NCBI GenBank assembly: GCA_023700805.1 | Contig: JAMPYF010000012.1 | Coordinates: 1 to 64,000 of the forward strand | Length of the DNA: 64,000 nucleotides | Direction: 5' to 3' | Source of the DNA: Sulfuritalea sp. | GTDB taxonomy: Bacteria > Pseudomonadota > Gammaproteobacteria > Burkholderiales > Rhodocyclaceae | Shown: one piece after another, positions 7,775 through 60,060 of the stretch | How the letters are laid out: each line of letters opens with the position of its first letter | Position numbering within the stretch: position 1 is the stretch's first letter | Notes under the pieces: generated by a model | What the model was told of the DNA's origin: nothing | Database searches by the model: none | What the model saw: the letters and a program-made list of their open reading frames with translations, nothing else | Made by a program: the position numbers and the translations under genes

Positions 7775-8837
7775 TCGTTCACTGCCGCCGGTGATCGCGG
7801 TCACCTCCGGCGAACCCGCGGGAATCGGACCGGACATCTGCCTGCGCCTGGCCGAGCGCGCTTGGCCGGCGCGGCTGGTGGTGCTGGGCGACCGCGATCT
7901 GCTGGCGGCGCGCGCGCAACAGCTTGGCGTGAACGCCGAACGCATCGAGATCCGCCATGTGCCGCTGCGAAAGTTGGCGCTGGCGGGACGGCTCGACGCC
8001 GCCAACGCGCGCTACGTGCTGGATATGCTCGATGCCGCGCTGGCCGGATGCGTCGCCGGCGACTATGCGGCGATGGTCACGGCTCCGGTGCACAAGGGCG
8101 TCATCAACGACGCCGGGATCGCCTTCAGCGGCCATACCGAATACCTGGCCGAACACACGGCGACGCCGCGCGTGGTGATGATGCTGGCCGCTCAGTTGCC
8201 AGATGTGGGTTTGCGCGTCGCGCTGGCGACCACGCATCTGGCCCTGAAGGACGTCGCCGCCGCGATCACGCGCGAGGAACTGGAGACCACGATCCGCATA
8301 CTCCATGCCGATCTGCAAGCCAAGTTCGGCATCGCCGCGCCGCGCATCCTCGTCGCCGGGCTCAACCCGCATGCCGGCGAAGGCGGCCACATGGGCCGCG
8401 AGGAAATCGAGGTCATCACGCCGGTGCTGGACATGCTGCGCGCGGAAGGCATGAATCTGGTCGGCCCCTTGCCGGCGGATACGCTGTTCACAAAAAATGT
8501 GCTGGCCGGCTCCGACGCGCAACTGGCGATGTATCACGACCAGGGCCTCGCGGTGCTCAAGTACGCGGCCTTCGACGAGGGCATCAACGTCACGCTCGGC
8601 CTGCCGATCATCCGCACCTCGGTCGACCACGGCACGGCGCTCGATCTCGCGGGAAGCGGCAAGGCCTCGCCGACCAGCCTGTTCGCCGCCGTCGATGCCG
8701 CGATCGACATGGCGCAGCGGCGCACCGCGCCGCCCGCAGGGCCGCCCCAAGGGCGGCGCAGCCATGACCCGGAGCCGGCGCAGCCGGCGAACCACAGTCA
8801 CCCTCTCCCTCGGGGAGAGGGCCGGGGTGAGGGCTAA
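7746..8837 (+). CDS. pdxA: 4-hydroxythreonine-4-phosphate dehydrogenase PdxA with repeat-coded tail
   Basis: Vitamin B6 biosynthesis enzyme, 363 residues. The family start [15 protein letters not shown], the metal-binding [12 protein letters not shown] and HTEYLAEHT region, [13 protein letters not shown] and [12 protein letters not shown] are all present. The body normally ends near [10 protein letters not shown]. Here about 40 further residues (from [12 protein letters not shown] to GEGRGEG) are encoded by a family B repeat. The ATG at 7746 overlaps surA by 29 bases; a GTG at 7791 is an alternative start closer to the family N-terminus. Confidence 0.93.
7971..7992 (+). repeat. Family A core motif, copy in pdxA
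   Basis: The core AAGTTGGCGCTGGC followed by GGGACGGC reads LALAG in PdxA. It is one of ten copies in the window; see 10321-10381 for the long form. Confidence 0.45.
8738..8834 (+). repeat. Family B composite hairpin repeat, full copy, forms pdxA 3' end
   Basis: Three blocks occur in order: GGCCGCCCCAAGGGCGGC (hairpin 1), CGGAGCCGGCGCAGCCGGCG with GAACC (hairpin 2), then ACAGTCA and CCCTCTCCC/GGGAGAGGG (hairpin 3) ending CCGGGGTGAGGGC. The same block order occurs at 48165-48270 and, inverted, at 52099-52202. The right arm resembles GAGAGGG-type intergenic repeats common in proteobacteria. It is read in frame as the PdxA tail. Confidence 0.7.
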
Positions 8838-8841
8838 TCGC

Positions 8842-9624
8842 ATGTGCCAACTGCTCGGCATGAACGGCAACACGCCGACCGACATCTGCTTTTCCTTTGA
8901 GGGCTTCCGTACCCGCGGCGGACTCACCGACGTGCATAAGGACGGCTGGGGCATCGCCTTCTTCGAAGGCCCGGGTTGCCGCGTCTTTCTCGACGTCGAG
9001 CCATCGGCGCATTCCGCGGTGGCCGAGTTGGTGCGCCACTATCCGATCCATTCGAAGAACGTCGTCGCCCACATCCGCAAGGCGACCCAGGGCAGAGTCG
9101 CCTTGGAGAACACCCATCCCTTCCAGCGCGAACTGTGGGGCCGCTACTGGCTCTTCGCCCACAACGGCAACCTCAAGGATTTCGCGCCCAGTCTCGATGG
9201 CAGCTTCGTCCCGGTCGGCGACACCGATTCCGAACTGGCCTTCTGCTTCCTGCTGCAGCGCCTGCGCGGCGAATTCGGCCATGCCATGCCGCTGCGGCGG
9301 CCGATGTTCGAATTCCTGACCGGCATCACCCGCGAAATTGCGGCCCACGGCGAGTTCAATTTCCTGCTCAGCAACGGCAACTGCCTGTATGCCCACTGCG
9401 CCACCAAACTGGCCTACGTCGTGCGTCAGGCGCCCTTCGCCGTTGCCCACCTCAAGGATCAGGACGTCAGCATCGATTTCAGCGAAGTGACCAACCCCGA
9501 CGACCGCGTCGCCGTGATCGCGACGCTGCCGCTGACCGACAACGAAACCTGGACCGCCATCGAACCCGGCACCCTGATGGTGTTCCACAGCGGCGTGCCG
9601 GCGGCCACGGCGCGCACGGCATGA
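8842..9624 (+). CDS. Class II glutamine amidotransferase, YafJ family
   Basis: A 260-residue Ntn hydrolase. The start MCQLLGMN puts the nucleophile Cys at position 2, as required for class II amidotransferases. DGWGIAFFEG, VVAHIRKATQG (oxyanion and glutamine-binding region) and WLFAHNGNLKDF follow in family order. It is a stand-alone domain with no synthase part, so it probably acts as an amidase or with an unknown partner. It starts 4 bases after the repeat-derived pdxA stop. Confidence 0.85.
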   Translation: MCQLLGMNGNTPTDICFSFEGFRTRGGLTDVHKDGWGIAFFEGPGCRVFLDVEPSAHSAVAELVRHYPIHSKNVVAHIRKATQGRVALENTHPFQRELWGRYWLFAHNGNLKDFAPSLDGSFVPVGDTDSELAFCFLLQRLRGEFGHAMPLRRPMFEFLTGITREIAAHGEFNFLLSNGNCLYAHCATKLAYVVRQAPFAVAHLKDQDVSIDFSEVTNPDDRVAVIATLPLTDNETWTAIEPGTLMVFHSGVPAATARTA

Positions 9625-9654
9625 AGACCGTCGCCGGGCACACGGCGCGGAAAA

Positions 9655-9732
9655 GGTTTAGCTACGGCCGCTCGCAAGGCTCGCTTAACCCGCTGCGCGG
9701 GTCAGCCTTCTCTGAAACTCCGGCTAACTGAC
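9655..9732 (+). repeat. Intergenic GC-rich hairpin stretch before rsmA
   Basis: Between the amidotransferase and rsmA a GCTCGC/GGCTCGC-rich stretch carries a perfect hairpin at 9688-9702 with arms ACCCGC and GCGGGT. It resembles the other intergenic hairpins in style but does not align to either repeat family by eye. There is no T run. Confidence 0.35.
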
Positions 9733-10581
9733 GTGAGCAGACACGTTGAGGGACATAGCGCCCGCCGTCGTTTTGGCCAGAACTTCCTGGTCTCCGAGGG
9801 CGTGATCCGCAAGATCGTCGAGGCCATCGCGCCGCGTGCCGGCGACACGGTGGTCGAGATCGGGCCGGGGCTGGGCGCGCTGACCGAGCCGCTGCTGGAG
9901 CGCATAGCCCATCTGCACGTGGTCGAGATCGACCGCGACCTGATCGCGCGCCTGCGGCAGCGCTTCCCGCCCGAACGCCTGAGCATCCATGAAGGCGACG
10001 CGCTCGAATTCGACTTCGGCACGCTGAAGGCTGCGGGGCCGCTGAAAATCGTCGGCAACCTGCCCTACAACATTTCCAGCCCGCTGCTGTTCCACCTGGT
10101 TCCCTTCGCACCGCTGGTCCATGACATGCATTTCATGCTGCAGAAGGAAGTGGTCGATCGCATGGTGGCCGAGCCCGGCAGCAAGGATTTCGGCCGCCTG
10201 TCGGTGATGCTGCAATACCGCTACCACATGGAGCGCATGTTCATCGTGCCGCCCGGCGCCTTCAACCCGCCGCCCAAGGTCGACTCGGCCATCGTGCGCA
10301 TGATTCCGGTCGACTTTTCAAGAGTTGGCGCTGGCTCGCTCTGCGTACCTGGAATTCCGCTTCGCGGGCAGGTAACGGCGAGCGACCCGGCGCTGTTCGC
10401 CAAGCTGGTCACCGCGGCCTTTTCGCAGCGGCGCAAGATGCTGCGCAACACGCTGCGCGAATTCATCGGCGAGGCCGCTCTCGCCGCGCTGGGCATCACG
10501 CCGACGGCGCGCGCCGAGGACATCGCCGTGGCCGACTACGTGCGCCTCGCCAATACGCTGGCCGACCTTGCCCGCCGCTGA
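9733..10581 (+). CDS. rsmA: 16S rRNA dimethyladenosine transferase RsmA (KsgA) with repeat insertion
   Basis: Dimethylates two adjacent adenines in the 3' hairpin of 16S rRNA. Family motifs: [31 protein letters not shown] (SAM binding), VEIDRDLI, the catalytic [15 protein letters not shown] and [14 protein letters not shown]. At 282 residues it is somewhat long because [20 protein letters not shown] (about residues 198-217) is coded by a 61-base repeat set between the normal IPVDFS and SDPALF segments. The start is a GTG without a clear ribosome site. The downstream flavoprotein overlaps the stop. Confidence 0.94.
10321..10381 (+). repeat. Family A long form, in frame inside rsmA
   Basis: A 61-base unit: AGAGTTGGCGCTGGC, then TCGCTCTGCG, a hairpin with outer arms TACCTG/CAGGTA and inner arms CCGC/GCGG, then ACGGCGA. 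It matches 14196-14256 at almost every position, over the same length. The hairpin lies between two blocks that are nearly adjacent in the short copies. Confidence 0.75.
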
Positions 10582-11845
10582 GCCACGTCCTCGCACAGTC
10601 GCCGTCATCGGCGGCGGCCCGGCCGGCCTGATGGCCGCGGAAGTGTTGAGCAAGGCCGGGCTGCGGGTCGATGTCTACGACGCCATGCCCTCGGTGGCGC
10701 GCAAGTTCCTGCTGGCCGGCCGCGGCGGCCTCAACCTGACGCACGCCGAAGCGCCCGGGCCATTCCTCGCGCGCTATGGCGCGCGCCGCGCGGAAGTCGG
10801 CCGCTGGCTCGCCGAGTTCGGCCCGCAGCAACTGCGCGACTGGGCCCACGGCCTCGGCATCGAAACCTTCGTCGGCAGTTCCGGCCGTGTCTTTCCGCAG
10901 GAAATGAAGGCCGCACCGCTGCTGCGGGCCTGGCTGCACCGGCTGCGCGGCGCCGGCGTGAGTTTCCATGCGCGCCACCGCTGGCTGGGCTGGGATGCCG
11001 CCGGCAGCTTGCGCTTCGCCACGCCGGCCGGCGAGCTGAAAGTTGGCGCTGGCGCCACGGTGCTGGCGCTGGGCGGCGGCAGTTGGGCGCGGCTGGGTTC
11101 GGATGGCGCCTGGGTGCCGCTGCTGAAGGCGCGCGGCGTGGCGGTTCAGGCGCTGCGGCCGGCCAACTGCGGCTTTGACGTAGCCTGGAGCGAACATCTG
11201 CGCCTGCGCTTTGCCGGCACGCCGGTCAAGACCGTCAGCACCAGCTTCATCGCCGAGGACGGCTCGGTGACCAGGCAGGATGGCGAATTCCTGATCACTC
11301 AGCACGGCGTCGAGGGCAGCCTGATCTACGCATTGTCGGCGCCGCTGCGCGACTGCATCGAAGCCAGCGGCAGCGCCGTGCTGCATCTGGACCTTGCGCC
11401 AGGGCGCGACCTGGCGCGCCTGACCCGGGATCTGGCCCAGCCGCGCGGCCGCGATTCGCTGTCCAATCACCTGCGTCGCCGCGCCGGCCTGGCCGGCGTC
11501 AAGGCCGCGCTGCTGCACGAGTCTGCCGCGCCGGACGATCTCGCCACGCCGGAACGGCTCGCGGCCCTGATCAAGGCCCTGCCCTTACGCCTCGCATCGC
11601 CGCGTCCGCTCGACGAAGCGATCAGCAGCGCCGGCGGCGTCGATTTCACCGCGCTCGACGGGAACCTGATGCTGCAGGCACTGCCGGGAACGTTCTGCGC
11701 CGGCGAAATGCTCGACTGGGAAGCACCGACCGGCGGCTACCTGCTCACCGCCTGTTTTGCCAGCGGCCACGCCGCGGCGCAGGGCCTGCTGCGCTGGCTG
11801 GCTCGGGTGCAGCCAGTCAAGGCCGAACCGCACCCGGTCAGATGA
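10568..11845 (+). CDS. BaiN-like / HI0933-family FAD flavoprotein (TIGR03862 type)
   Basis: A 425-residue flavoprotein. The N-terminus [18 protein letters not shown] binds [19 protein letters not shown] and [17 protein letters not shown] are signature segments of the HI0933/BaiN group, and [19 protein letters not shown] near the C-terminus closes the FAD site. The substrate is unknown for this branch. The start is a TTG at 10568 overlapping rsmA by 14 bases, which implies coupled translation. Confidence 0.88.
11040..11061 (+). repeat. Family A core motif, copy in the flavoprotein gene
   Basis: AAGTTGGCGCTGGC followed by GCCACGG, read in the VGAGAT frame of the flavoprotein. Confidence 0.45.
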
Positions 11846-11849
11846 AGCT

Positions 11850-12044
11850 TCAGGCCTGCTTCTTCACCGCACAGGTGCTGAAGCCGAACATTGCGTAGGG
11901 CGGACACCAGCCGATCGCGCCAGTGGCCAGCGGCACCACGCCGATCCACGCCCACACCGGACCGCCCATGGCAGCCCAGCCAACCAGTCCGAGACCCGCA
12001 GCAATACGCAATACGCGGTCGATGCCGCCGACGTTCAGTTTCAT
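11850..12044 (-). CDS. DUF2892 (YgaP-transmembrane type) small membrane protein
   Basis: A 64-residue protein starting MKLNVGGIDRVLRIAAG, with two hydrophobic helices and a WCPPY motif between them, ending in TCAVKKQA. This is the DUF2892 family of inner-membrane proteins, seen alone or fused to rhodanese domains. A GGAGAA ribosome site precedes it. It is preceded by a Crp/Fnr-like box at the right distance for activation and by the regulator gene itself. Confidence 0.85.
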   Translation of the reverse strand: MKLNVGGIDRVLRIAAGLGLVGWAAMGGPVWAWIGVVPLATGAIGWCPPYAMFGFSTCAVKKQA

Positions 12045-12080
12045 GGTGTTCTCCTTGGGGGGTTATGCAACAGTGAGCGC

Positions 12081-14195: not shown

Positions 14196-14256
14196 AAAGT
14201 TGGCGCTGGCTCGCTCTGCGTACCTGGGATTCCGCTTCGCGGCCAGGTAACGGCGA
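14196..14256 (+). repeat. Family A long form, intergenic copy
   Basis: A 61-base copy, AAAGTTGGCGCTGGC then TCGCTCTGCG, hairpin arms TACCTG/CAGGTA and CCGC/GCGG, then ACGGCGA. It differs from the rsmA copy at only a few positions. It lies between the converging PilZ and prlC genes. Confidence 0.75.
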
Positions 14257-16369: not shown

Positions 16370-17185
16370 TCAAGTCTCTTCGACGAGATCTTTGTAGGCG
16401 TGAAAACTGGCGTGGCCGAGCCAGGGCATGACCAGGATCATCCCGACCAGGGCCGTGGCGAAACCGAGACCCGTCAGCAGCATGATGATCAGTGCCCACA
16501 AGGCCAGCGGCAGCGGGTTGGCGGCCACCGCGTTGAGGCTGGTCATCAGCGCGCATAGCAGATCGCAGCGGCGGTCGACCAGCATCGGCATCGAAACCAC
16601 GCTGAGGGCGAATACCAGGGCGGCAAGCACGCCGCCGGCACCCAGGTAGATAAAGAACATCAGGTAGTGCTGCGGGTTGATCAGCACCTCGATCATCATG
16701 TCCAGCGGCGCCAGGGCCGGGCCCTTGTAGTACACCGCCACGATCACCGCCGAGACCACCTGCCACACCGTGCCGGCCAGCATCGACAACAGGCCGAAGC
16801 TGACCAGCGCCGATGGATTGCGCCGCCAGGCCCCCATCGAATCGAACAGCGTGGCAGGCTCGCCAGCCAGATAGCGACGCGAAAGCTCATAGAGTCCCGC
16901 GGCAAGCATAGGTGCCACCAGCAAAAAGCCGGTGATGGCGGCGCCGAACAGGTAAGGCAGGCTCGCCGTCACGCCCAGGATCACGGCGCCGGTCACGGCC
17001 ACGGCGAGGCCGTAGAACAGGCTGGCCGCCGGCTGCCGCCAGAGGTCGGCCCAGCCGCGCTGCAACCATGTCAACGGCGTGGTTATGCCGATCTGGCGTA
17101 CCTGGGGAAGGGTTATGTTCCCGGCGGAGTCGGGACCGCTACCCCCGGCGGGCGGCGCTGGCGGAACGGCGGCGGAGTCGTTCAT
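16370..17185 (-). CDS. DUF2189-domain membrane protein
   Basis: A 271-residue protein with a Pro/Gly-rich N-terminal tail (to about residue 30), PLTWLQRGWADLWRQPAASL, then about six hydrophobic helices and the ending GHASFHAYKDLVEE, which are typical of DUF2189 integral membrane proteins. Function is unknown. It sits between purC and prlC in the same direction. Confidence 0.82.
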   Translation of the reverse strand: MNDSAAVPPAPPAGGSGPDSAGNITLPQVRQIGITTPLTWLQRGWADLWRQPAASLFYGLAVAVTGAVILGVTASLPYLFGAAITGFLLVAPMLAAGLYELSRRYLAGEPATLFDSMGAWRRNPSALVSFGLLSMLAGTVWQVVSAVIVAVYYKGPALAPLDMMIEVLINPQHYLMFFIYLGAGGVLAALVFALSVVSMPMLVDRRCDLLCALMTSLNAVAANPLPLALWALIIMLLTGLGFATALVGMILVMPWLGHASFHAYKDLVEET

Positions 17186-27732: not shown

Positions 27733-30099
27733 TTAGCGCGTCAGCTCCAGATACAGGCTGGGCAGCGTTTCGGGCAGGCGCTCGATGCGGTCGAGCACGC
27801 GCCAGCGCTTGCCGAAGATGTCGCGCACATAGTCGTCGGCCCGCGGATCGAGGCTCAAACAGAAGGTCGTGACGCCCACCGCCGCCAGCTCCTCGACGGC
27901 CTTGCGGGCATCGGCGCGCAGATGGCCGGGTTCGCTGACGTCGATGTCCGCCGGCTCGCCGTCGGTCAACAGCAGCAGGATTTTCTTGTCGGCCTGGCGA
28001 TGCGACAAATAGTGGCCGGCATGGCGCAGGGCCGCGCCCATGCGCGTCGAGTATCCCGCTTCCATCGCCGCCAGCCGCGCCTTGACCGTGTCGTCCCAGC
28101 GCTCCGAGAAACCCTTGATGTGCTGGTAGCGCACCTCGTGCCGGGTGTTGGAATGGAAGCCGGCGATGGCATAGGGATCGCCGAGGCAATCGATGGCCCA
28201 GGCCAGCAGCGAGACGGCTTCCTGGCTCAGTTCGAGAACCGTCTGCCCGCTCGCCGTGCCGTCAGCGCCAACTCTCTCATTGAGCGAAGCCGACAAGTCG
28301 AGCAGGAGCAGGACCTGGATGTTGCGGCCGTCGGTACGGTGGCTCATGTTGATGCGCGGATCGGGGGTGGCGCCGCTCTTGAAATCGATCAGCGAGCCGA
28401 CCGCGACGTCGAGATCGAGCTCGCTGCCCTCCTCCTGATAGCGGATGCGCACCTTGTCCTGCGGCTTGAGCAGATCGAGCAGGCGCTTGAGCTGCTTGGC
28501 CAGCGCGGCATGCTTGGCCAGCAGGCGATCGATCTCGGCGGGATTGCCGCTGGCGTGCATGGCTTCATAGACGCTGACCCAGTCCGGCCGGTAGGTCTGG
28601 CTCGCGAAGTCCCATTCGGGGTAGCGGCGCGGCGGCAGGCCGTGCAGTTCCTCGCCGGGTTCCGGCCTGCGCTCCTCGTCGAAGGCTTCTTCCTCGTCGC
28701 CTTGCTCGATGAATTTCCACAACTGGCGATTGTCGTCGCGGTAGTCGATGACCGTGTCGTCGAAATGTATCTTGGCGAGCTGGTCGCTCTGGCGGCGGGT
28801 CTGGGTGACATAGGCCAGTGCCAGCGCGGCGCTTTCCGCGGTGCTGGATTCACGGCCCGTCAGCATTTGATGGAAGCGCCGGACGAAATCGAGCAGCACC
28901 GGTTCGCCGTAGCCGTGCGCGGGGTCGAGCAGGGCGCGCGAGAGCATCGCCAGACGGTGGCGCAGGCAGGATGTGGTTTGCGGATCGCAGGCGGCCTCCT
29001 GCGGTCTCGGATGTAGGGCCAGAAAGATGCGGGAGAGGCCCGGATATTCGCGCATCAACAGGGTTTCGATGCGGCAGTCCTCGAAGAACTCGACCGCCAT
29101 GCGCTGGAAGGGACTCCAGTTGTCGGCGATCTGCGCCTGGCTCCAGCGGCGATGGCCGACCATGTGCGCCAGCACGGCGCGATAGCGGTCGAGCCCCGTC
29201 ACGCCGCGAACGTCGTCGAACACGTCGGGCACGCGGATGCCCAGATGATCGTAATAGGGCACGGGCTTGCGCAACTCGCCGCTGGTCAATTGCGCGGTCG
29301 AATACGGCACCAGTTGTTCGCTGTCGCGCCACAGCGCGCGCAGGTACAGATCGAGTTGCCGTTCGACGTCGGCGAACAGCGTGCCGTGGCGTTCGCGCTG
29401 CAGCACGGCATGGCTGTCGGCCGACTGCAGGCTGAAGTAGTCGACCTGGCGCTCCGGGTGATTGGCGTAATTGCGAATGCCGTACTCGGTCCAGTTCCGC
29501 AGGCCGGTGGTCGACAGCAGGCCGAGCAGGCGCGGCGCCTGCGCGAAGAACTCGGGCAGGGCGGGACTGGGAAAGGTGGTGTGGTGGCCGTGGATCGATC
29601 CCGAGCTGCGCGCCATCAAGTCCTGCGCGATGTCGAGGTAGATGCGCAGCTGATCGGCCGACGGCAGGCGCCGCGCGACCGCCGCCAGCGTCTGCAGGAA
29701 GGGCGTGATGGCCTTGCTGTTGGGCGACTGCTGCATGGCGCGAATCGCGCTCATGACTGACGGTAGCAGGTCTTGTTGATCGACTCCGGCGGCGGCGACC
29801 ACCGCCGGCCATTCTTCGAGAAAGGCCAGCAGCGGCTCAGGCCCGCGACCGAGCTTGCCGATATAGCGCGCGGCTTCGATGAACGCTTCCATCTGCGGCT
29901 TGCTGAAGCTGCTCAGCGCCTCGTACAGGCACTCCTCGAAAACGTCGGCCACCGGTGCGAAGCCGCAGTCGAGCGCCTGCCACCAGGCCTGCGCCTGGGG
30001 ATGCGCCATCTGCCGCTGGCGCGCGTCGGTGACGGGGCGAAATCCGGTCGCCATGCTTCGCTGCTGATTGAATGGGCTCTTGTCGCGCCGTGTCGCCAT
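27733..30099 (-). CDS. cbbO: RuBisCO activase subunit CbbO (VWA domain)
   Basis: A 788-residue adaptor that binds RuBisCO and works with the CbbQ AAA+ motor to remove inhibitory sugar phosphates. The C-terminal von Willebrand A domain shows the MIDAS motif LLLDLSASLNE and LLLTDGEPADIDV; the large N-terminal part contains YRAVLAHMVGHRRWSQ. Just after the MIDAS motif the residues RVGADGTAS are coded by a family A repeat, so the loop is probably longer than usual. It follows cbbQ by 70 bases. The start at 30099 could instead be the Met at residue 16. Confidence 0.94.
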   Translation of the reverse strand: MATRRDKSPFNQQRSMATGFRPVTDARQRQMAHPQAQAWWQALDCGFAPVADVFEECLYEALSSFSKPQMEAFIEAARYIGKLGRGPEPLLAFLEEWPAVVAAAGVDQQDLLPSVMSAIRAMQQSPNSKAITPFLQTLAAVARRLPSADQLRIYLDIAQDLMARSSGSIHGHHTTFPSPALPEFFAQAPRLLGLLSTTGLRNWTEYGIRNYANHPERQVDYFSLQSADSHAVLQRERHGTLFADVERQLDLYLRALWRDSEQLVPYSTAQLTSGELRKPVPYYDHLGIRVPDVFDDVRGVTGLDRYRAVLAHMVGHRRWSQAQIADNWSPFQRMAVEFFEDCRIETLLMREYPGLSRIFLALHPRPQEAACDPQTTSCLRHRLAMLSRALLDPAHGYGEPVLLDFVRRFHQMLTGRESSTAESAALALAYVTQTRRQSDQLAKIHFDDTVIDYRDDNRQLWKFIEQGDEEEAFDEERRPEPGEELHGLPPRRYPEWDFASQTYRPDWVSVYEAMHASGNPAEIDRLLAKHAALAKQLKRLLDLLKPQDKVRIRYQEEGSELDLDVAVGSLIDFKSGATPDPRINMSHRTDGRNIQVLLLLDLSASLNERVGADGTASGQTVLELSQEAVSLLAWAIDCLGDPYAIAGFHSNTRHEVRYQHIKGFSERWDDTVKARLAAMEAGYSTRMGAALRHAGHYLSHRQADKKILLLLTDGEPADIDVSEPGHLRADARKAVEELAAVGVTTFCLSLDPRADDYVRDIFGKRWRVLDRIERLPETLPSLYLELTR
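28251..28275 (-). repeat. Family A core motif, copy in cbbO
   Basis: On the minus strand AGAGTTGGCGCTGAC then GGCACGGCGA, read as RVGADGTA next to the MIDAS motif of CbbO. Confidence 0.5.
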
Positions 30100-30169
30100 C
30101 CGCTACGGCGAGGAGAGCGTTTCTTGCTCGACCGCCTTGTAGCGCAGGGGTTTCATCAGCGCCGACTCT

Positions 30170-36635: not shown

Positions 36636-37364
36636 ATGATACCGAGATTTTTCTGCCCCTTCCCGCTCCACCCCGGCGCCACGGTCGAGCTTGCCGCCGA
36701 AACGGCCCACCACGCGCTGAAGGTCCTGAGAGTTGGCGCTGGCGACACGGCGATGCTGTTCGACGGGCGCGGCGGGCAATGGCGGGCCACGCTCAACCCG
36801 GCCGGGAAGCGCTTGCGCGCGACGCTCGGGGAGTTCGACGCCAGCGACTGCGAGCCGCCGCTGGCGCTGACGCTGGTGCAGGCGCTGGCGGCCAGCGACA
36901 AGATGGATTTCGTGGTGCAGAAGGCCGTCGAACTCGGCGTGCAACACATCCAGCCGGTGGCGGCGAAGCGCAGCGTGATCCGGCTTGCGGGCGAACGCGC
37001 CGAGCGCCGCGTCGAGCACTGGCGCAACATCGCCGTCGCCGCCTGCGAGCAATGCGGGCGCAACCGCGTTCCCGGCGTGGCGCCGATTCTTGATCTGCCG
37101 CAATATCTTGGCCTCGCAGCGCAGGACAATGCGATACGCTTCGTCTGCGCGCCGGGGGCCACGGGGTCCCTGCGCGACTTGGCCGCACCCACACTACCGG
37201 TCATTCTGCTGGTCGGCCCGGAAGGCGGCTTCGAGGAAGGCGAATTGTTGGCGGCGCGGGCCGCCGGCTTCCAGCCCATCGGCCTGGGGCCGCGCATACT
37301 GCGCACGGAAACCGCCGGACTTGGCGCTGTGGCGGCAATGATGGCACTTTGGGGAGACTGGTGA
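36636..37364 (+). CDS. rsmE: 16S rRNA m3U1498 methyltransferase RsmE
   Basis: A 242-residue SPOUT-class methyltransferase. MIPRFFCPFPL is the family start, then HHALKVLRVGAGDTAMLFDG (PUA-like), KMDFVVQKAVELGVQHIQPV, the SAM-knot LVGPEGGFEEGEL and ILRTETAGLGAVAAMMALWG. The residues RVGAGDTA come from a family A repeat and fit the family consensus without a length change. Its stop overlaps the next gene by one base. Confidence 0.94.
   Translation: MIPRFFCPFPLHPGATVELAAETAHHALKVLRVGAGDTAMLFDGRGGQWRATLNPAGKRLRATLGEFDASDCEPPLALTLVQALAASDKMDFVVQKAVELGVQHIQPVAAKRSVIRLAGERAERRVEHWRNIAVAACEQCGRNRVPGVAPILDLPQYLGLAAQDNAIRFVCAPGATGSLRDLAAPTLPVILLVGPEGGFEEGELLAARAAGFQPIGLGPRILRTETAGLGAVAAMMALWGDW
36729..36753 (+). 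repeat. Family A core motif, copy in rsmE
   Basis: AGAGTTGGCGCTGGC then GACACGGCGA, read as RVGAGDTA in RsmE. Confidence 0.5.
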
Positions 37365-44061: not shown

Positions 44062-45876
44062 TCACTTTTTGCGCATCGGCGGCAGGTCGGTGCAGCTGCC
44101 GTGGGCCACTTCGGCCGCCATGCCTATGGTCTCGCCGAGGGTCGGGTGCGGATGGATGGTCTTGCCGATATCCACCGCGTCTGCGCCCATTTCGATGGCC
44201 AGCGCGACTTCACCGATCATGTCGCCGGCGTTGGGGCCGACGATGCTGCCGCCGATCACGCGATGGCTTTCTTCGTCGAACACCAGCTTGGTGAAGCCGT
44301 ACTCGGCGCCGTTGGCGATCGCGCGTCCCGAAGCCGCCCAGGGGAATCTGGCGACGCTGACCTTGCGCCCCGACCTCGAAGCCTCGTCCTCGCCGACGCC
44401 AACCCAGGCCACCTCGGGATGGGTGTAGGCGACGCCGGGTATCACCGTGGCGTCGAAATGGCTCTTCTGCCCTGCCGCGGCCTCGGCCGCGACGTGGGCC
44501 TCGTGCACCGCCTTGTGCGCCAGCATCGGCTGACCGACGATGTCGCCGATGGCGTAGATGTGCGGCACATTGGTGCGCATCTGGCTATCGACCGGGATGA
44601 ATCCGCGCTCGTTCACCACCACACCGGCCTTGTCGGCGTCGATCTTCTTGCCGTTGGGCGCGCGTCCGGCGGATTGCAGGATCATGTCATAACGCTGCGC
44701 CGCGGCCGGCGCCTGCTCGCCTTCGAACTTGACCCAGAGGCCATCCGGCTTGGCGTCCACGGCGACGGTCTTGGTCTTCAGCATGATCTGGTCGAAGCGT
44801 TTGGCGTTCTGCTTTTCCCAGACCTTGACCAGGTCGCGATCGGGCCCCTGCATCAGGCCGTCGAGCATTTCCACGACATCCACCTTGGCGCCCAGCGCCG
44901 AGTACACGGTGGCCATTTCAAGGCCGATGATGCCGCCGCCGATGACCAGCATGCGCTGCGGCAGCTTTCCGCCAACAGCGCGCAGTTCCAGCGCGCCGGT
45001 CGAATCGACGATGCGCGGGTCCTTCGGGATGAAGGGGAGGTGGAAGGCCGCGCTGCCGGCGGCGATGATGCATTTCTGGAAGCGGATCACCTTCTTGTTG
45101 CCGGTCTTGTCCTGCGCGGTGCCGGTGGTTTCCTCGACTTCGAGATGGTTGGCGTCGAGGAAATGGCCATAGCCGCGCACGGTCTCCACCTTGCGCGCCT
45201 TGGCCATGCCGGAGAGGCCGCCGGTGAGCTTGCCGACCACCTTGTCCTTGTGCGCGCGCAGCTTGTCGATATCGACCTTGGGCGCGGCGAAACCGACGCC
45301 GAGTTCGGCGGCATGTTCCGCTTCCTCCATCACCGCCGCGACGTGCAGCAGCGCCTTCGAGGGAATGCAGCCGACATTGAGACAGACACCGCCCAGCGTT
45401 GCATAACGTTCGACGATGACCGTTTTCATGCCGAGATCGGCAGCGCGGAAGGCCGCCGAATAGCCGCCGGGACCGGCGCCGAGTACCAGCATTTCGCATT
45501 CGAGATCGGCCCTGCCGGCGAATTTGCCGACGGCGCCTGCGGCGGCAGGCGCCGGTGACTCCGCGGGAGCCTTGGCCGCGGCCGGAGCAGCGGGCGCAGG
45601 CGCCGTAGCGCCAGCGCCAGCGCTCTGCGTCCCCTCGGGAACTTTCACGACGGCCACCGGCGTGCCTTCCGCCACCCTGTCGCCGACCTTGAGCTTGACC
45701 TCGGTGACGGTGCCGCCGACCGGCGAAGGCACGTCCATGGTCGCCTTGTCCGATTCGAGGGTGACCAGCGAGTCCTCGGCCTTGACCATGTCGCCGACCT
45801 TGACCAGCACTTCGATGACCGGCACATCCTTGAAGTCGCCGATGTCGGGAACTTTCACTTCAACGATGTCATTCAT
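44062..45876 (-). CDS. lpdA: Dihydrolipoyl dehydrogenase with N-terminal lipoyl domain (PDH E3)
   Basis: A 604-residue E3 subunit. Residues 1-80 form a lipoyl domain (VTLESDKATMDVPSP, lipoylated Lys in DKA), then an Ala/Pro linker to about residue 120, then the flavoprotein: FAD motif LVLGAGPGGYSAAFRAADLG, redox disulfide GGVCLNVGCIPSKALLH, NAD motif VIGGGIIGLEMATVY and the HPHPTLGE catalytic His-Glu. The lipoyl fusion is typical of betaproteobacterial E3. Its start overlaps the BPH gene by 8 bases. Confidence 0.96.
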   Translation of the reverse strand: MNDIVEVKVPDIGDFKDVPVIEVLVKVGDMVKAEDSLVTLESDKATMDVPSPVGGTVTEVKLKVGDRVAEGTPVAVVKVPEGTQSAGAGATAPAPAAPAAAKAPAESPAPAAAGAVGKFAGRADLECEMLVLGAGPGGYSAAFRAADLGMKTVIVERYATLGGVCLNVGCIPSKALLHVAAVMEEAEHAAELGVGFAAPKVDIDKLRAHKDKVVGKLTGGLSGMAKARKVETVRGYGHFLDANHLEVEETTGTAQDKTGNKKVIRFQKCIIAAGSAAFHLPFIPKDPRIVDSTGALELRAVGGKLPQRMLVIGGGIIGLEMATVYSALGAKVDVVEMLDGLMQGPDRDLVKVWEKQNAKRFDQIMLKTKTVAVDAKPDGLWVKFEGEQAPAAAQRYDMILQSAGRAPNGKKIDADKAGVVVNERGFIPVDSQMRTNVPHIYAIGDIVGQPMLAHKAVHEAHVAAEAAAGQKSHFDATVIPGVAYTHPEVAWVGVGEDEASRSGRKVSVARFPWAASGRAIANGAEYGFTKLVFDEESHRVIGGSIVGPNAGDMIGEVALAIEMGADAVDIGKTIHPHPTLGETIGMAAEVAHGSCTDLPPMRKK

Positions 45877-46450: not shown

Positions 46451-48156
46451 AGCATGCTTCTCCGCATGTCGGCCAGGAGCTGCGCCAGATAGACGTTGAA
46501 GCGCGTCGCCAGCGCGCCGTCGATGACGCGGTGATCGGCCGTCAGCGACAGCGGCAGGATCAGGCGCGGGACGAATTGCTTGCCGTCCCAGACTGGCTTC
46601 ATCGCCGATTTGCTGACGCCGAGGATCGCCACTTCCGGCGCATTCACGATGGGCGCAAAGCCGGTGCCGCCGATGCCGCCGACGCTGGAAATGGTGAAGC
46701 AGGCGCCCTGCATGTCGGCCGGCTTCAACTTGCCCTCCCGTGCCTGCTTCGCCAGCTCGCCGGTCTCCCGCGCCAGTTCGAAGACGCCCTTGCCGTCGGC
46801 GTTCTTGATCACCGGCACCATCAGGCCGTTCGGCGTGTCGGCGGCGAAGCCAATGTTGAAATACTTCTTCAACACCAGATTGTCGCCGTCGATCGAGGCA
46901 TTGAACTCGGGGTATTTCTGCATGGCCTTGACGCAGGCCTTGATCAGGAAGGCGAGCATGGTCAGCTTGGCCGCCGCTTTGTCGCCGCCCTTCTCGTTTT
47001 CCTTGTTGATCTCGACGCGGAAGGCTTCGAGGTCGGTGATGTCGGCGTCCTCGTGATAAGTGACGGCCGGGATCATGATCCAGTTGCGCGACAGATTGGC
47101 GCCGGAAATCTTCTTGATGCGCGACAGCGGCTGCACCTCGATCGCGCCGAATTTGGCGAAGTCGATCTGCGGCCAGGGCAGCAAATCCAATCCACCCAAA
47201 CTCGCAACGCCCGAACCTGTACCAAGCGCGGCGGCGGGCGCCGCCGCCGCGCTGACCACGCCCTTGACCCAGGCCTGGACGTCGCTGTGCATGATGCGTC
47301 CCTTGGGGCCGCTGCCCAGCACCTTGGCGATGTCGACGCCCAACTCCCGCGCAAAGCGGCGCACCGAGGGGCTGGCATGGGCCGCATGGCCGGACAGCCG
47401 GTCCACCGGCGATGGCATGGCGACACGCGGCGGCGCGGCTACCAGGTCTGCATCGCCGGGGCGGTAGTCGGCGCCTACGGCGGCGGACGTGCCTGCGGGC
47501 ACCGCCGCCGGATTCGCTGGCGCCGCCACGACCGCCACGGCCGCCGCGGCCGCGGTCGGCGCCGCCGTCGGTGCCGCTGTCGCGGCGACCGCCGTGGCGT
47601 CAGCGCCAACTGTTACCAGGGCCAGCAACACACCCTCGGCGACCTTGTCGCCGACCTTGACCTTCAGCTCGCTGACGACGCCGGAAACCGGCGAGGGAAT
47701 ATCCATGGTCGCCTTGTCCGATTCGAGCGTCATCAGGGAATCCTCGGCCTTGACCGCGTCGCCGACCTTGACCAGCAACTCGATGATGGGCACTTCCTTG
47801 AAGTCGCCGATGTCGGGCACCTTGACTTCGACCACGGTCGTGGCGGCGGCGGGCGCGGCCGGCGGCGGTGCCGCAAGCGCGGCGGCGGCGACAGGCGCAG
47901 CGGCGACCTGCGCCGACGCGGCGCTGTCGATCAGGGCGACCAGACTGCCCTCCGCGACCTTGTCGCCGATTTTCAGCTTGAGTTCGGTAACCACGCCCGA
48001 AACCGGCGAGGGCACGTCCATGGTCGCCTTGTCGGATTCCAGCGTGACCAGCGAATCCTCGGCCCTGACCGTATCGCCGACCTTGACCAGCAGCTCGATC
48101 ACCGGCACGTCCTTGAAGTCGCCGATGTCGGGTACTTTCACTTCGACTATGCTCAT
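46447..48156 (-). CDS. aceF: Dihydrolipoamide acetyltransferase (PDH E2), two lipoyl domains
   Basis: A 569-residue core subunit of pyruvate dehydrogenase. Two lipoyl domains (residues about 1-78 and 110-185), each with TLESDKATMD, are joined by Ala/Pro/Val linkers. The peripheral subunit-binding domain is SPSVRRFARELGVDIAKVLG, and the catalytic domain ends with LSLTADHRVIDGALATRF. The start MSIVEVKVPDIGDFK at 48156 has GGAGG before it. It lies behind aceE with a family B repeat between them. Confidence 0.96.
   Translation of the reverse strand: MSIVEVKVPDIGDFKDVPVIELLVKVGDTVRAEDSLVTLESDKATMDVPSPVSGVVTELKLKIGDKVAEGSLVALIDSAASAQVAAAPVAAAALAAPPPAAPAAATTVVEVKVPDIGDFKEVPIIELLVKVGDAVKAEDSLMTLESDKATMDIPSPVSGVVSELKVKVGDKVAEGVLLALVTVGADATAVAATAAPTAAPTAAAAAVAVVAAPANPAAVPAGTSAAVGADYRPGDADLVAAPPRVAMPSPVDRLSGHAAHASPSVRRFARELGVDIAKVLGSGPKGRIMHSDVQAWVKGVVSAAAAPAAALGTGSGVASLGGLDLLPWPQIDFAKFGAIEVQPLSRIKKISGANLSRNWIMIPAVTYHEDADITDLEAFRVEINKENEKGGDKAAAKLTMLAFLIKACVKAMQKYPEFNASIDGDNLVLKKYFNIGFAADTPNGLMVPVIKNADGKGVFELARETGELAKQAREGKLKPADMQGACFTISSVGGIGGTGFAPIVNAPEVAILGVSKSAMKPVWDGKQFVPRLILPLSLTADHRVIDGALATRFNVYLAQLLADMRRSML
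47590..47612 (-). repeat. Family A core motif, copy in the aceF linker
   Basis: CAGTTGGCGCTGAC then GCCACGGCGG on the minus strand, read as TVGADATA in the linker after the second lipoyl domain. Confidence 0.45.
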
Positions 48157-48274: not shown

Positions 48275-50947
<2,673 letters not shown>

Positions 50948-51286: not shown

Positions 51287-52249
51287 TCAGCGCGAATGGA
51301 ACTTGACCACCGCGCGGCCGTCGGCAAGCTGTCGCGGCTCGGGTTTCCAGGCGTGGCCATAGACGATTTCGAAGCTGGCGGGCAGGCGCCGCTCGACATC
51401 CCGCGGCCAGGCGCCCAGCAGCCGACGCCAGTCGCGCCAGCCCTGGCGGCCCAGCAGCGCATCGCGCACGCCCAGGTGGCGCTGGTCGGCGAGGAAGGCG
51501 CGCGGCGTCGGATAGCTGAGGGTGATCATCTCCATGTCCATCACCGGATCGCCAAAACCGGCGGCGACCAGCATGTCGCCCAGATCGTGCATGTCGAGAA
51601 AGCGCCGCGCCGTGTCGTCAGCGCCAACTCTTGCCCCGGCTTCGCGCAACTCCTTCAAGGTGTCGGGGCCCAGCGTGGCGAAGCAGAGCAGGCCGCCGAC
51701 TTCGAGCACGCGATGCAATTCGCGCAAGGCCGGCAGCGGGTCGTCGAGCCAGTGCAGCATCAGGTTGGACCAGACCAGGCCCAGGGAATTGGCGGTCAGC
51801 GGCAAGGCGCGGACGTCGGCATTGAGCAGGCGGGGACCGCGCCCGGTGAATCGTTGCAGGCGCGGCGTGCGGGAACGCAGGGCGCGCAGCATGGGCAGGG
51901 CGTAGTCGATGGCCAGCGGCAGCGCCTTGGCATAGCGCCGCTGCAGTTCGCGGATGCCGTCGCCGGTCGCGCAGCCGATGTCGGCCACGCGCTGTGGAGT
52001 GATCTTTACCAGATCGAGGCGGGCCGCCATGCGAGCGCCCACTTCGCGGGCGAGTACCGCGGCCGAGTCGTAGGTTTCCGCCGCGTCAGCGAACTTAAGG
52101 AGCCTTCCCCCCGCCCCCCTTCCCGAGGAAGGTGGTGACAGTGGTTCGCGGGCTTCGCCCGCTCCGGGGTTTGAATGCGCCGCCTTGGGACGGCCCGGCG
52201 GCGGCGCGCGCACGGCTGATTTAAGCGGCCTTGAGTCCCAGCCGCGCAA
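51287..52249 (-). CDS. bioC: Malonyl-ACP O-methyltransferase BioC with repeat-coded N-terminus
   Basis: Methylates malonyl-ACP to start pimeloyl synthesis for biotin. The conserved part begins at [23 protein letters not shown], then [16 protein letters not shown] (SAM binding), [14 protein letters not shown] and [20 protein letters not shown]. No ATG, GTG or TTG lies between the family B repeat (52099-52202) and the conserved part. The nearest in-frame starts are ATG 52249 and GTG 52210, so about 45-60 extra residues are coded by the repeat. ATG 52249 is inside the end of bioB, so coupled translation is likely. Without protein data the true start is open. Confidence 0.85.
51607..51631 (-). 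repeat. Family A core motif, copy in bioC
   Basis: AGAGTTGGCGCTGAC then GACACGGCG on the minus strand, read as RVGADDTA in BioC. Confidence 0.5.
52099..52202 (-). repeat. Family B composite hairpin repeat between bioB and bioC
   Basis: On the minus strand GGCCGTCCCAAGGCGGCGCA, then CCGGAGCGGGCGAAGCCCGC with GAACC, ACTGTCACC, and CTTCCTCGGGAAGG. This is the block order of 8738-8834, in inverted orientation. It is open in the bioC frame. Confidence 0.7.
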
Positions 52250-53254: not shown

Positions 53255-53962
53255 TTGTCAATTGCAGCGGATCTGGAGAAAGCCTGGCGCAACACCGCCG
53301 CCGCCCTCTTGCCGCAGGACTGTTTCCTCTGCGCCGCCGCGAGCGGCGACTGCCTGCTGTGCCCCGCCTGCAGCGCCGGCCTGCCTTATCTGAGCGCCGA
53401 GCGCTGCCCGCTCTGCGCGCTGCCGACCCCGGGAGCCGCCGTCTGCGGTGCCTGTCTCAAGCAGGCGCCGCATTTCGATGCGACCCAGGCCGTGTTCCGC
53501 TACGAGTTCCCGGTGGACCGCCTGATCCAGTCGCTGAAGTACGCCCACCGTCTCGCCAGCGCCAACTTTCTCGGGCGGGCGCTGGCACAGCTGGCCGCCC
53601 CGCTCCGCCCCGGCCTGGTGCTGCCGGTGCCGCTGGCGCCGGCGCGACTCGCGGAGCGCGGCTTCAACCAGGCCCTGGAACTTGCCCGGCCGCTGGCACG
53701 CGCACTCGGCGTGCCGCTCGAGCTCAGCCGCATTCACCGCCGCCGCGACACCGTGCCACAAGCCAGCCTGCCGTGGAAGGAGCGCAAGCGCAACATCCGC
53801 CATGCCTTCGAATGCGACATGGATTTGAGCGGCAAGACCGTGCTGGTGGTCGACGACGTCATGACCACCGGCGCGACGCTCGACGAACTGGCCCGCACGC
53901 TCAAGGCGCACGGCGCAACGCGGGTCGAGAACTGCGTGCTGGCGCGCGCGCTGAAGGATTGA
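53255..53962 (+). CDS. comF: ComF-family phosphoribosyltransferase-like protein
   Basis: A 235-residue protein linked to natural transformation in several bacteria. The N-terminal zinc part has [18 protein letters not shown] and [11 protein letters not shown] (Cys pairs); the PRTase part has [20 protein letters not shown] and the PRPP-binding [18 protein letters not shown]. The start is TTG at 53255 (GGAAGGAG nearby). The genes bioC and comF often neighbour each other in betaproteobacteria. Confidence 0.9.
53548..53569 (-). repeat. Family A core motif, copy in comF
   Basis: On the minus strand AAAGTTGGCGCTGGC then GAGACGG; on the coding strand it reads LASAN in ComF. Confidence 0.4.
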
Positions 53963-54395: not shown

Positions 54396-54412
54396 AAGGC
54401 GCGCCGGACGTC

Positions 54413-55552: not shown

Positions 55553-55670
55553 TGAACCACCCTCCGCCCAATCGCCTCGCCAAGCGTGGATGGTGACCTT
55601 GGTTTGTCGCTGCGCGGCCCCATAGCCTGGCAGCGCCGCCCGGGAGCGGCCCGGCGGAGGGCGCTCACTC

Positions 55671-56507: not shown

Positions 56508-56523
56508 GGCTCGCCGCGCAACA

Positions 56524-58263: not shown

Positions 58264-58643
58264 TTTTGGGTGGTTCCCGTCATCCGCCGTTTTGCAGCCT
58301 TGTTCTTGGTCGGCACTTTTTCAATCGCGGGCGTCATCTCGATGACTTCGCGCCCGCTCTCCCCTGCCAGCACCACTTCTTTTTCGCTGATCTTCAGCAC
58401 CCGCTTGTCGCCGAGCCGGTCCCCTTCCTCGACGTACTGTCCGTTGATCACGGCAGCCGACTTGCCCCCGGGACGCAGTATCACCGTCTGCACCCCACTC
58501 TTTGCCGCCACGGCCGCAGCAGCACCCACCTCCTGATCGAACACGGCTGCAGGCGGACGCGTCGGATCCGGCACCTGGGCGACAGCAAGGCTCGATCCAA
58601 CGAGACTCGCCAGGAAAATCGCGAGCAGGCCGCGCCGCATCAT
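58260..58643 (-). CDS. mshK: MSHA biogenesis protein MshK
   Basis: A 127-residue periplasmic protein. A signal peptide (LLAIFLASLVGSSLAVAQ) is followed by VPDPTRPP, the family motif, and a GspC/PilP-like fold (LRPGGKSAAVINGQYVEEGD, VLKISEKEVVLAG). A basic tail KNKAAKRRMTGTTQK ends it. It overlaps both neighbours by 4 bases. Confidence 0.85.
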   Translation of the reverse strand: MMRRGLLAIFLASLVGSSLAVAQVPDPTRPPAAVFDQEVGAAAAVAAKSGVQTVILRPGGKSAAVINGQYVEEGDRLGDKRVLKISEKEVVLAGESGREVIEMTPAIEKVPTKNKAAKRRMTGTTQK

Positions 58644-59386
58644 ACAACCAACCAATTTCTGTCGAGACTCAAGGTGTACACCCGTACCACCATGATGTTG
58701 CGTGGATACTTTTCCACCGTGAAGCGGACGCTGTTCCACAACAGGCGCTGCGGCATGCGCTCGAGTTCCGCCAGATAATTCAACAGACCATTGTAGTCGC
58801 CTGCCAGGCGGATTTCGATACCGTGCTGGTAGATGCCGCCGCCCGAACCCGGGTCTGCTTCGTCTTGCCCCGTCTTGTCCTTGCCGGCATCCTTGGCGGC
58901 ATCCTTGGCGGCCGGCACGGACATTCCAGCCTGGATCTCGACCTTGGGCGACGCCCCGACCAGCGTCACCGGCAGGGTTTTCAGTTCGAGCAATTCGATG
59001 GCCCGATTCCTCGCCAGCAATCCCTGCAAGAAAGCCTGCATCCGGGCCGGTGGCACCATGCCGGCCTCGAAGTCCGCGAGCCGCTCGCTGACCGCCGCCA
59101 GTTCCTGTTTCACCTGCGCCAGCCGACGCCGGTTGGCGGCATCCGGATCGACATTCTGCGCCCCGAGCGCGGCCGCCTGCGCCTGCTGCCGCGCGAGTTC
59201 GGCACGCGCCGTGGTTTCGGCGCGGACCGCGCTGCGCGCTTTGAGCACGAACGGTTCGACTGCGAAATTGAATATCAGCAGGCCGCCGCCAAGTATCAGC
59301 ACCGCGGCGGTGATCACCCGCTCGCGCTGCGTCAGCGCGGCGAACTTCGCGTTCCATTTTGCCCACTGGACGGCCAGCGCCTTCAT
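58640..59386 (-). CDS. mshJ: MSHA biogenesis protein MshJ (PilO-like)
   Basis: A 248-residue inner-membrane protein with one helix (VITAAVLILGGGLLIFNFA), a coiled coil to about residue 110 and a ferredoxin-like C-terminal fold (IEIRLAGDYNGLLNYLAELER). A KDAAKDAGKD stretch is coded by short tandem bases. It is equivalent to PilO/GspM in the alignment complex. Confidence 0.87.
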   Translation of the reverse strand: MKALAVQWAKWNAKFAALTQRERVITAAVLILGGGLLIFNFAVEPFVLKARSAVRAETTARAELARQQAQAAALGAQNVDPDAANRRRLAQVKQELAAVSERLADFEAGMVPPARMQAFLQGLLARNRAIELLELKTLPVTLVGASPKVEIQAGMSVPAAKDAAKDAGKDKTGQDEADPGSGGGIYQHGIEIRLAGDYNGLLNYLAELERMPQRLLWNSVRFTVEKYPRNIMVVRVYTLSLDRNWLVV

Positions 59387-60060
59387 TGTCCGCCTCCCGT
59401 TGGCTCGGCCAATTTCGGCATCAGGACAAAGTCGATCGGACGCGGTCCGGAAGTTGGCGCTGGCGCCACGGCGGCGGTGCCCGGCGCGGAGGGTCGTGCC
59501 GGAGCGGACGGCTCGGCCCGGTTCATGGTCAAGGAAGCGAAACTGCGTCCCTGAAACACCGTTTCGTTGCCAAGGCGGCGGATGTATTCGGGCAAGACCA
59601 CGGGGTCGAGCATGCTGCCGCGAATTTCCATGTCGCTACCGCCGGACTTGATCGTAAAACCCGTCAGCCAGAGGCCTTCCGGTGCCTGACGGGCAAAACC
59701 GCGCAGGTAATCGGCAAAGCCGCCCGTGTTGCCGACGGCCCCGCTTTCGAGCAGGCGCGCTATGTCGCTGCGCCGGCGCAGCATGCCTTCGGCGCGCTCC
59801 AGTTCGCTAACCAGTTGCGGGCTGGGTTTGCGCGCGCCGGCGGCCTTGGTCGCTGCCTCGACCTGGGCCTTCACTGCCTTGAGTTGCAGCTCGGCGGCAG
59901 TCGCGGCCTGGCTTCGCGTCGCCGCGCTCTGCCAGGCCCAGCCGCCTGCCGCGGCCAGCAGCAGATACACCGCCGCCGTCGCCAGCACCACATTGCCCAG
60001 CGTCAGCAGCTCACGCTGCCTGAGATAGCGCGGATGATAAAGATTGATCTGGGCGCTCAT
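59383..60060 (-). CDS. PilN-like fimbrial assembly protein (second MshI)
   Basis: A 225-residue protein starting MSAQINLYHPRYLRQREL, the PilN start, with a hydrophobic helix (LATAAVYLLLAAAGGWAW), a coiled coil and the domain LTGFTIKSGGSDMEIRGSM. It pairs with the larger MshI upstream, as PilN pairs with PilM. The C-terminal linker APAPTSGPRP is coded by a family A repeat. Confidence 0.85.
   Translation of the reverse strand: MSAQINLYHPRYLRQRELLTLGNVVLATAAVYLLLAAAGGWAWQSAATRSQAATAAELQLKAVKAQVEAATKAAGARKPSPQLVSELERAEGMLRRRSDIARLLESGAVGNTGGFADYLRGFARQAPEGLWLTGFTIKSGGSDMEIRGSMLDPVVLPEYIRRLGNETVFQGRSFASLTMNRAEPSAPARPSAPGTAAVAPAPTSGPRPIDFVLMPKLAEPTGGGQ
59450..59474 (+). repeat. Family A core motif, copy in the pilN-like gene
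   Basis: GAAGTTGGCGCTGGC then GCCACGGCGG on the plus strand. The gene is on the minus strand and reads AVAPAPTS in the linker. Confidence 0.45.

Follow-up and report, generated by a model that had tools for sequence, protein, structure and literature searches.

A bipartite word in Sulfuritalea and sister Rhodocyclaceae that may work like a DNA uptake sequence

A 64,000-nucleotide stretch of a Sulfuritalea genome (contig JAMPYF010000012.1, positions 1 to 64,000; ‘the window’ below) carries the same word of about 22 bases at ten places, mostly inside genes for unrelated proteins. What maintains a word of this length in such places? An initial annotation had proposed either a small mobile or gene-converting element or a DNA signal such as an uptake or segregation motif. 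We examined the word in the genome of the window (G000, 4,156,694 bases; other G-numbers are genomes compared with it) and in related genomes. The best reading of the results is a signal of the DNA-uptake-sequence kind that biased transformation maintains in what would be a third bacterial family. We lean towards the view that the motif works in this way in Sulfuritalea and some sister genera, where its role in uptake is one that we infer from genome comparison.

The word and its abundance

All ten sites listed initially were present (Table 1), with starts that differ from those first given by 1–2 bases on the + strand and by 9–12 on the − strand, where the low end of the longer motif had been given. 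Of the ten exact matches to AGTTGGCGCTG, eight are short forms; in the other two, the long forms at 10323 and 14198, a hairpin of ∼36 additional bases separates the halves. The list grows by four related sites that had gone unlisted, comprising three decayed copies and a third kind of long form (last rows of Table 1).

The full unit, derived from 64 copies of AGTTGGCGCTG within 456.5 kb of G000, is RARAGTTGGCGCTGGCGNNACGGCG; conservation spans positions −3 to +21 and ends on both sides. The motif is bipartite, with twenty defined bases (AGTYGGCGCYGRCG-NN-ACGGCG) preceded by a purine-rich three-base lead. Among the 64 copies the first N was A, C or G and never T, and the second was C, T or G, plus one A.

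A whole-genome pattern count found 451 copies of AGTTGGCGCTGNC in G000 (237 forward and 214 reverse) versus a single match for the same pattern read backwards, which bears out the earlier statement that the motif lies far above the expectation from composition; counts in its relatives uphold the over-representation there as well. Pieces of the motif rank top among 12-mers in G000, at 459 times a first-order model in the 456.5-kb sample, and by the same ranking in a 400-kb sample of G002 (249 times). Within the window, 17 matches were found at up to one mismatch, versus a mean of 2.18, and none of 100 dinucleotide shuffles reached 17. The motif occurs on both strands, within genes and between them (as judged by a crude codon model), at a density of about one per 5–6 kb with up to two mismatches counted. 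A 20-kb stretch chosen as motif-poor had a single copy in its first 6 kb, shared by most genus genomes, and 0 copies in ∼12 kb of mostly accessory DNA, where ∼2 were expected (one stretch only). One perfect inverted pair of motifs, with a very short loop and a terminator-like appearance, lies at positions 2869149–2869197 of contig C1 in G002 (L220, L284), and five further genomes of the genus have one perfect inverted pair each.

Distribution and a one-base dialect change

When public genomes were searched for the full pattern, at least 76 stretches matched, and the matches listed included Sulfuritalea sp., Rhodocyclales, Rhodocyclaceae and a few others. Besides its 451 copies in G000, AGTTGGCGCTGNC was abundant in G001 (354) and G016 (403), and had 1–8 copies in the 22 others of 25 same-genus genomes; the T pattern gave 319, 252 and 294 matches in G000, G001 and G016 and at most 7 elsewhere. 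Only G000 and these two close relatives, which are mostly 89–94% identical to it over stretches of the window (other species mostly 70–91%), use the T form in quantity. The C form, AGTCGGCGCYGRCGNNACGG (one-base dialect AGTCGGCGC), reached 132–453 copies in 19 of 23 same-genus genomes, with the 453 in G002; the remaining four were G000, G001 and G016 (39, 36 and 45 copies) and G017 (11).

Five further genera of the family carry the C form in tens to hundreds of copies: g24 (164) and g54 (358), with one genome sampled in each, g62 (44–299 in four genomes), g80 (37–144 in nine genomes) and g35 (70–335 in 17 of 19 genomes, 0 and 6 in the remaining two). Outside those six genera, no genome of the family held more than 12 copies. 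The C pattern matched in 122 of 395 family genomes, versus one reversed-control match; when 150 genomes of the order were sampled, 6 of the 146 outside the family matched, with 1–4 copies, and the reversed control gave two matches. Among the titles and abstracts listed from open-licence papers, none described such a motif for Rhodocyclaceae or Sulfuritalea. Small groups of C-form copies on single contigs were seen in motif-poor genera (contigs C66, C104 and C557 of G095, and contig C1 of both G121 and G166), as expected of tracts imported from carriers.

The fourth base of the motif follows the clade. In orthologous groups 1, 2, 4, 5, 6 and 8 the T-form genomes have AGTT and nearly all others AGTC; group 7, a decayed copy with 3' half ACGCC, retains C in G000 and G001, and isolated T copies occur in G003, G014, G019 and G022. 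We binned AGT[T/C]GGCG sites by the number of mismatches at the 12 remaining defined positions of the motif. The G000 sample contained 56 T and 3 C at 0–1 mismatches, 14 T and 4 C at 2–3, 6 T and 9 C at 4–5, and 28 T and 49 C at six or more; in G002, intact motifs gave 0 T and 60 C and the background 28 T and 40 C. Because T dominates the intact motifs and not the background, the change from C to T is specific to the motif and does not reflect a shift in composition. Methylation followed by deamination may also produce such a change, but it would have to spare background AGTCGGCG and would therefore require recognition of the whole motif. Hundreds of scattered sites share the change while the background does not, and hence either selection at each site or copying biased by the word is needed. 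Uptake-biased transformation is a known process of word-biased copying, and this constitutes the strongest argument for an uptake-like role.

Two genomes, G418 and G017, are poor in the motif. The former, rated 100% complete and 10% contaminated, held 4, 5 and 9 copies at 0, 1 and 2 mismatches in 400 kb, versus 46, 16 and 11 in 400 kb of G002; its top 12-mer in a 400-kb sample is a different word (45 times), and no replacement word stands out. G017, with its 11 C-form copies genome-wide, gave one doubtful copy in 33 kb. The scarcity in both genomes looks like decay after the driving force was lost. Loss of comEC is not its cause, since both keep the gene; a ComEC domain was found in 30 of the 31 genomes of the genus, the exception being G384 (79% complete). 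The presence of ComEC does not account for the motif-poor genomes.

Short copies, hairpin insertions and the sites in the window

We compared orthologous regions corresponding to window positions 1001–20000 and 44500–63500, taken from 24 of the 30 other same-genus genomes (not each genome for both regions); the fragmented G408, G021, G417, G416, G009 and G020 and the middle of the window, with its motifs at 28252 and 36731, were left out. The copies fell into 39 groups, 14 of them with at least two species and 11 with a measurable motif-free orthologue. Length differences were counted as medians per species–site comparison; plain pair counts are not independent. In 52 motif-free comparisons at the 11 sites, the median difference was 0 in 23 (at 5 of the 11 sites), and the motif-free sequence was 20–30 nt shorter in one, a 30-nt difference between G000 and the G001 copy in the variable aceF linker; the others ranged from −49 to +40, and the sites of variable length were mostly linkers, gene ends and intergenic DNA. 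When the reference with the smallest difference was used for each species instead (a choice that leans towards 0), 26 of 56 comparisons were equal in length and two were 29–30 nt shorter. In that count, the equal-length orthologues and the 20-position core disagree at 5–16 positions (mean 9.0, versus 13.4 for random 22-mers), indicating that the orthologues are partly similar to the motif, yet several bases off.

Individual genes agree with this picture. At the motif RsmE reads VLRVGAGDTAMLFDG, aligned without gaps to VLRMGPGQALQLFDG of chain 4e8b_A, and PdxA likewise shows no gap across the motif when aligned with solved PdxA chains. Ten genus genomes without a clear motif at the flavoprotein site (11041) are of equal length there (d = 0), and G014 has an insert-bearing form; at 7972 the motif is found with at most two mismatches in ten genus genomes, G000 included. 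From the equal lengths and the gap-free RsmE and PdxA, the short motif appears to have been written in place rather than inserted. In Neisseria, gains of uptake sequences at divergent sites have been read as the result of recombination rather than point mutation (PMC2397512), and gene conversion, which the initial annotation had raised and which transformation would give, is a possible route of spread. Many orthologous sites across the genus share the motif, yet several orthologues lack it and its fourth base varies by clade, so the same bases are not present by descent at every site. Conservation at third codon positions in the motif and its flanks was 0.75/0.70, 0.69/0.76, 0.92/0.74 and 0.83/0.77 in four genes (6–7 motif positions each).

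The hairpin inserts, unlike the short motif, are insertions relative to motif-free orthologues. The long forms in G000 (17 matches, 15 of them nearly full length) hold a 36-nt hairpin, GCTYTGCRTRCCTGGGATTCCGCTTCGCGGGCAGGYA, at the NN position and in both orientations; its arms appear to change together (TACCTG/CAGGTA, TGCCGG/CCGGCA), as judged by eye only. A second type of insert consists of TATG, a hairpin and CGGTATCCCCTGCGGA between AGT and CGGCGC (window 17112–17171), and a third of ∼60 nt after GGCGCTGATGA (window 30086–30167); both occupy the motif in several species (L230, L219, L228). Species can differ in whether a given site holds the short or a long form, as at 7972, the rsmA site and 51608, the last of which has the hairpin-bearing form in G001, G003 and G015 and a different insert in G344. 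The 36-nt hairpin is also found outside the motif (for example L278 and L262) and is therefore best regarded as an independent element for which the motif is a frequent site; further loci that carry it, inside the motif or elsewhere, are L204, L133, L229 and L233. In RsmA, the long form contributes to a net 16 residues more than in the two solved homologues compared, and the hairpin accounts for 12 of these.

The 36-nt hairpin has the look of a repetitive extragenic palindromic (REP) sequence, and it lengthens the RsmA loop in frame. A Y1_Tnp domain was found in 26 of the 31 genus genomes; no Y1 transposase was found in the motif-rich G019 (99% complete) or in G001, G007 and G012 (83–90%). The hairpins could be REP-like despite these carriers in which no Y1 transposase was found. 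A link between transposase and short motif was rejected, as Y1 transposases do not track the motif. A Neisseria precedent for elements at such sites is the integrative element ICENmu, described as having an attachment site that contains an uptake sequence (PMC7371117).

The genes that carry the window copies were named with varying firmness. RsmE, RsmA and PdxA were identified through solved homologues, and the TIGR03862 flavoprotein, AceF and RsmA scored above NCBIfam cut-offs, which agrees with the names first assigned. BioC (51619) and ComF/GntX (53557) are the best NCBIfam matches yet fall under the cut-off. The putative CbbO gene at 28263 has no NCBIfam match and a Pfam VWA domain, and the putative PilN-like open reading frame at 59452 had no match in NCBIfam or Pfam. 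A 226-nt direct repeat occurs three times across the aceF and dihydrolipoyl dehydrogenase genes (window 45649–48157) and probably corresponds to lipoyl domains.

Table 1. Motif copies and insert-bearing forms in the window
Feature	Position	Strand	Exact AGTTGGCGCTG match	Context
Short motif AGTTGGCGCTGGCGGGACGGCT	7972..7993	+	7972	Inside pdxA; frame reads K-LALAGRL
Long motif: 5' half AGTTGGCGCTGGC, ∼36-nt hairpin element, 3' half ACGGCG	10323..10380	+	10323	Inside rsmA
Short motif	11041..11062	+	11041	Inside TIGR03862 flavoprotein gene; reads KVGAGATV
Long hairpin-bearing motif	14198..14255	+	14198	Intergenic in the initial annotation; no coding-like open reading frame over the site
Short motif	28252..28273	−	28263	Inside VWA-domain gene (initially CbbO); reads RVGADGTA
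Short motif	36731..36752	+	36731	Inside rsmE; reads RVGAGDTA (chain 4e8b_A has RMGPGQAL)
Short motif	47590..47611	−	47601	Inside aceF, linker after lipoyl domain; reads TVGADATA
Short motif	51608..51629	−	51619	Inside bioC-like gene; reads RVGADDTA
Short motif	53546..53567	−	53557	Opposite + strand comF/gntX-like gene; complement read as HRLASANFL
Short motif	59452..59473	+	59452	Opposite − strand open reading frame without family match
C-form motif, decayed, with 2 mismatches and 3' half ACGCC	1664..1685	+		
H1-type hairpin insert, then decayed motif (17150–17171)	17112..17171	+		
Third long-form kind (H3), ∼60 nt inserted within AGTCGGCGCTG...ACGGCG frame	30086..30167	−		
Decayed motif with H4-type insert	45601..45622	−		Lipoyl linker of dihydrolipoyl dehydrogenase gene

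Competing explanations and known uptake sequences

If the motif is uptake-like, the transformation machinery would possess a DNA receptor at the cell surface that prefers fragments with the word, imported fragments would replace their homologues, and better-matching alleles would spread by molecular drive. A shift in this preference by a single base, in the lineage that comprises G000, G001 and G016, would then have turned nearly all intact copies from C to T, and hairpin elements would land in some of the copies. The recogniser acting in trans, uptake as the process and biased recombination as the drive are all parts of this scheme that we infer. In Neisseria the corresponding receptor is described as the minor pilin ComP (PMC12616744).

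Could the motif instead be maintained through the proteins that contain it? The codon model placed 45 of 84 copies in G000 and 26 of 70 in G002 within genes (39 and 44 were unassigned), and the commonest frame, VGAG(D/A/G)TA, accounts for 24 of the 45 and 15 of the 26 gene copies, which explains the VGA(G/D) readings first noticed (six such copies and three that read otherwise, in agreement with our frame analysis). This single preferred frame, together with proteins such as RsmE that seem pre-adapted at the site, is what convergence on a favoured peptide VGAG(D/A)TA would predict; but copies also occur in other frames, on the opposite strand (antisense) and outside genes, and the T/C shift follows the nucleotide word, which makes such convergence highly improbable. 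The earlier conclusion that no common coding need explains the repeats was sound, even if single proteins were pre-adapted. The frame preference matches the preferred orientation within genes that is described for established uptake sequences (PMC2346458). An alternative, that a mobile palindromic element inserts in frame, intact in the hairpin-bearing long forms and shortened in the motif, draws on those hairpins (their two orientations, their seemingly co-changing arms and the other inserts at the same sites), on length differences that are mostly multiples of three in pair counts that are not independent, and on the two comparisons that were 29–30 nt shorter, which by medians reduce to the one in the aceF linker. 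We nevertheless regard it as quite unlikely, given the zero median difference in 23 of 52 motif-free comparisons, the gap-free RsmE and PdxA alignments, the lack of detected Y1 transposases in four motif-rich genomes and the fact that the two halves mostly adjoin (57 of 74 in G000 and 57 of 60 in G002). The mobile element first suggested thus suits the short motif poorly, and a mobile component does occur in the hairpin elements inside some copies.

The main rival is another kind of DNA-binding or modification signal: a protein that binds the chromosome or modifies DNA would recognise the motif as its site, and selection or mutational bias would maintain the motif without any role in uptake. 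Such a site would likewise yield copies written in place, on both strands, within genes and with clade dialects, and ComEC presence does not track the motif. However, the concerted change of one base needs a force that rewrites sites, which biased uptake with recombination supplies directly, and a word with twenty defined bases is long for a modification site. Strong orientation would moreover be expected of a signal for replication or segregation. In 20 tiles of G002, regions of positive GC skew held 14 forward and 26 reverse copies and those of negative skew 19 and 14, so that 45 of 73 copies share one orientation relative to the skew. As this trend is weak, a segregation motif, as first proposed, is weakly disfavoured. 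Overall, we judge a binding or modification site to be rather unlikely. The other signal named at the outset, an uptake motif, fits the over-representation, the presence on both strands, the origin in place and the clade dialects.

Several observations weigh against an uptake-like role. ComEC is also present in the motif-poor G017 and G418, and some of the few copies in G418 may be foreign, as that genome is 10% contaminated. At least 120 stretches of viral contigs in IMG/VR carry the full motif, some with two copies (L316–L395). Two genes, PdxA and the flavoprotein, supply 18 of the 23 comparisons of equal length (9 each), and the RsmA loop would still be 4 residues longer than in the solved homologues without its hairpin. 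A 20-kb stretch chosen as motif-poor had a single copy in its first 6 kb, shared by most genus genomes, and 0 copies in ∼12 kb of mostly accessory DNA, where ∼2 were expected (one stretch only). The density of the motif is several-fold under the one per kb that is usual, but not essential, for the uptake sequences of Neisseriaceae and Pasteurellaceae; exact inverted pairs, in Neisseriaceae likewise a usual but not essential trait, were rare (one each in 6 of 31 genus genomes); and spacing over 260 kb was not more even than random (coefficient of variation 0.84, versus 0.97 with standard deviation 0.14 for random placement). Since the motif is less dense than the uptake sequences of Neisseria and forms fewer inverted pairs, we limit our claim to a motif that works like an uptake sequence, and do not present it as a proven member of that class.

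We nonetheless lean towards uptake-biased transformation as the best explanation. More tentatively, the motif may belong to a third uptake-sequence system that evolved independently in Betaproteobacteria of the environment (Sulfuritalea and its sister Rhodocyclaceae) and whose long bipartite word has been caught in the midst of a genome-wide change from AGTC to AGTT and is exploited by small hairpin elements that land at the NN gap and at the AGT|CGG joint, in housekeeping genes as well. If true, such a case, found in bacteria of freshwater and groundwater, would mean that transformation with self-recognition arises repeatedly, also away from host niches. With one base almost fully replaced in three species, unchanged relatives for comparison and one depleted genome, the molecular-drive model of how uptake sequences evolve would become testable; some protein residues in these genomes would also be present for DNA reasons.

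Among other repeated words, the HIP1 sequence of cyanobacteria resembles the motif in being a very abundant word kept inside genes, and reportedly has been proposed as a target of a protein that binds the chromosome or modifies DNA; it is a palindromic octamer, whereas the motif described here is longer, non-palindromic and has dialects. The Rickettsia palindromic elements, as hairpin-bearing inserts in frame within genes, resemble the long forms, and differ from the short motif in that the latter mostly adds no length. The uptake signal sequences (USS) of Pasteurellaceae have a core with an extended consensus, as does this motif. They differ in being of unrelated sequence, of higher density and from Gammaproteobacteria, and the motif lacks AT-rich flanks. 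Like the motif, USS are found on both strands and favour one orientation within genes (PMC2346458), and comparisons of genes have suggested that they arise when sequence already present is altered (PMC1939737).

Pasteurellaceae and Neisseriaceae are described as taking up by preference DNA that carries a short sequence (PMC1939737), and uptake sequences are reported to lie in permissive core regions and to arise by recombination (PMC2397512). The DNA uptake sequences (DUS) of Neisseriaceae are described as over-represented 10-mers with clade dialects (PMC3630211), and the likeness to our motif extends to an oligomer that is over-represented on both strands, within genes as well as between them, with one-base dialects and with relatives that lack it (PMC3630211); two DUS dialects even differ by a change from C to T (PMC7371117). 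Unlike DUS, with their 10–12 bases, the motif has twenty defined bases in two halves around NN, and it numbers hundreds of copies per genome rather than thousands, with inverted pairs that are rare here and frequent in DUS. Its carriers belong to another family, the Rhodocyclaceae, and its counterpart of the ComP receptor of DUS is a postulated one.

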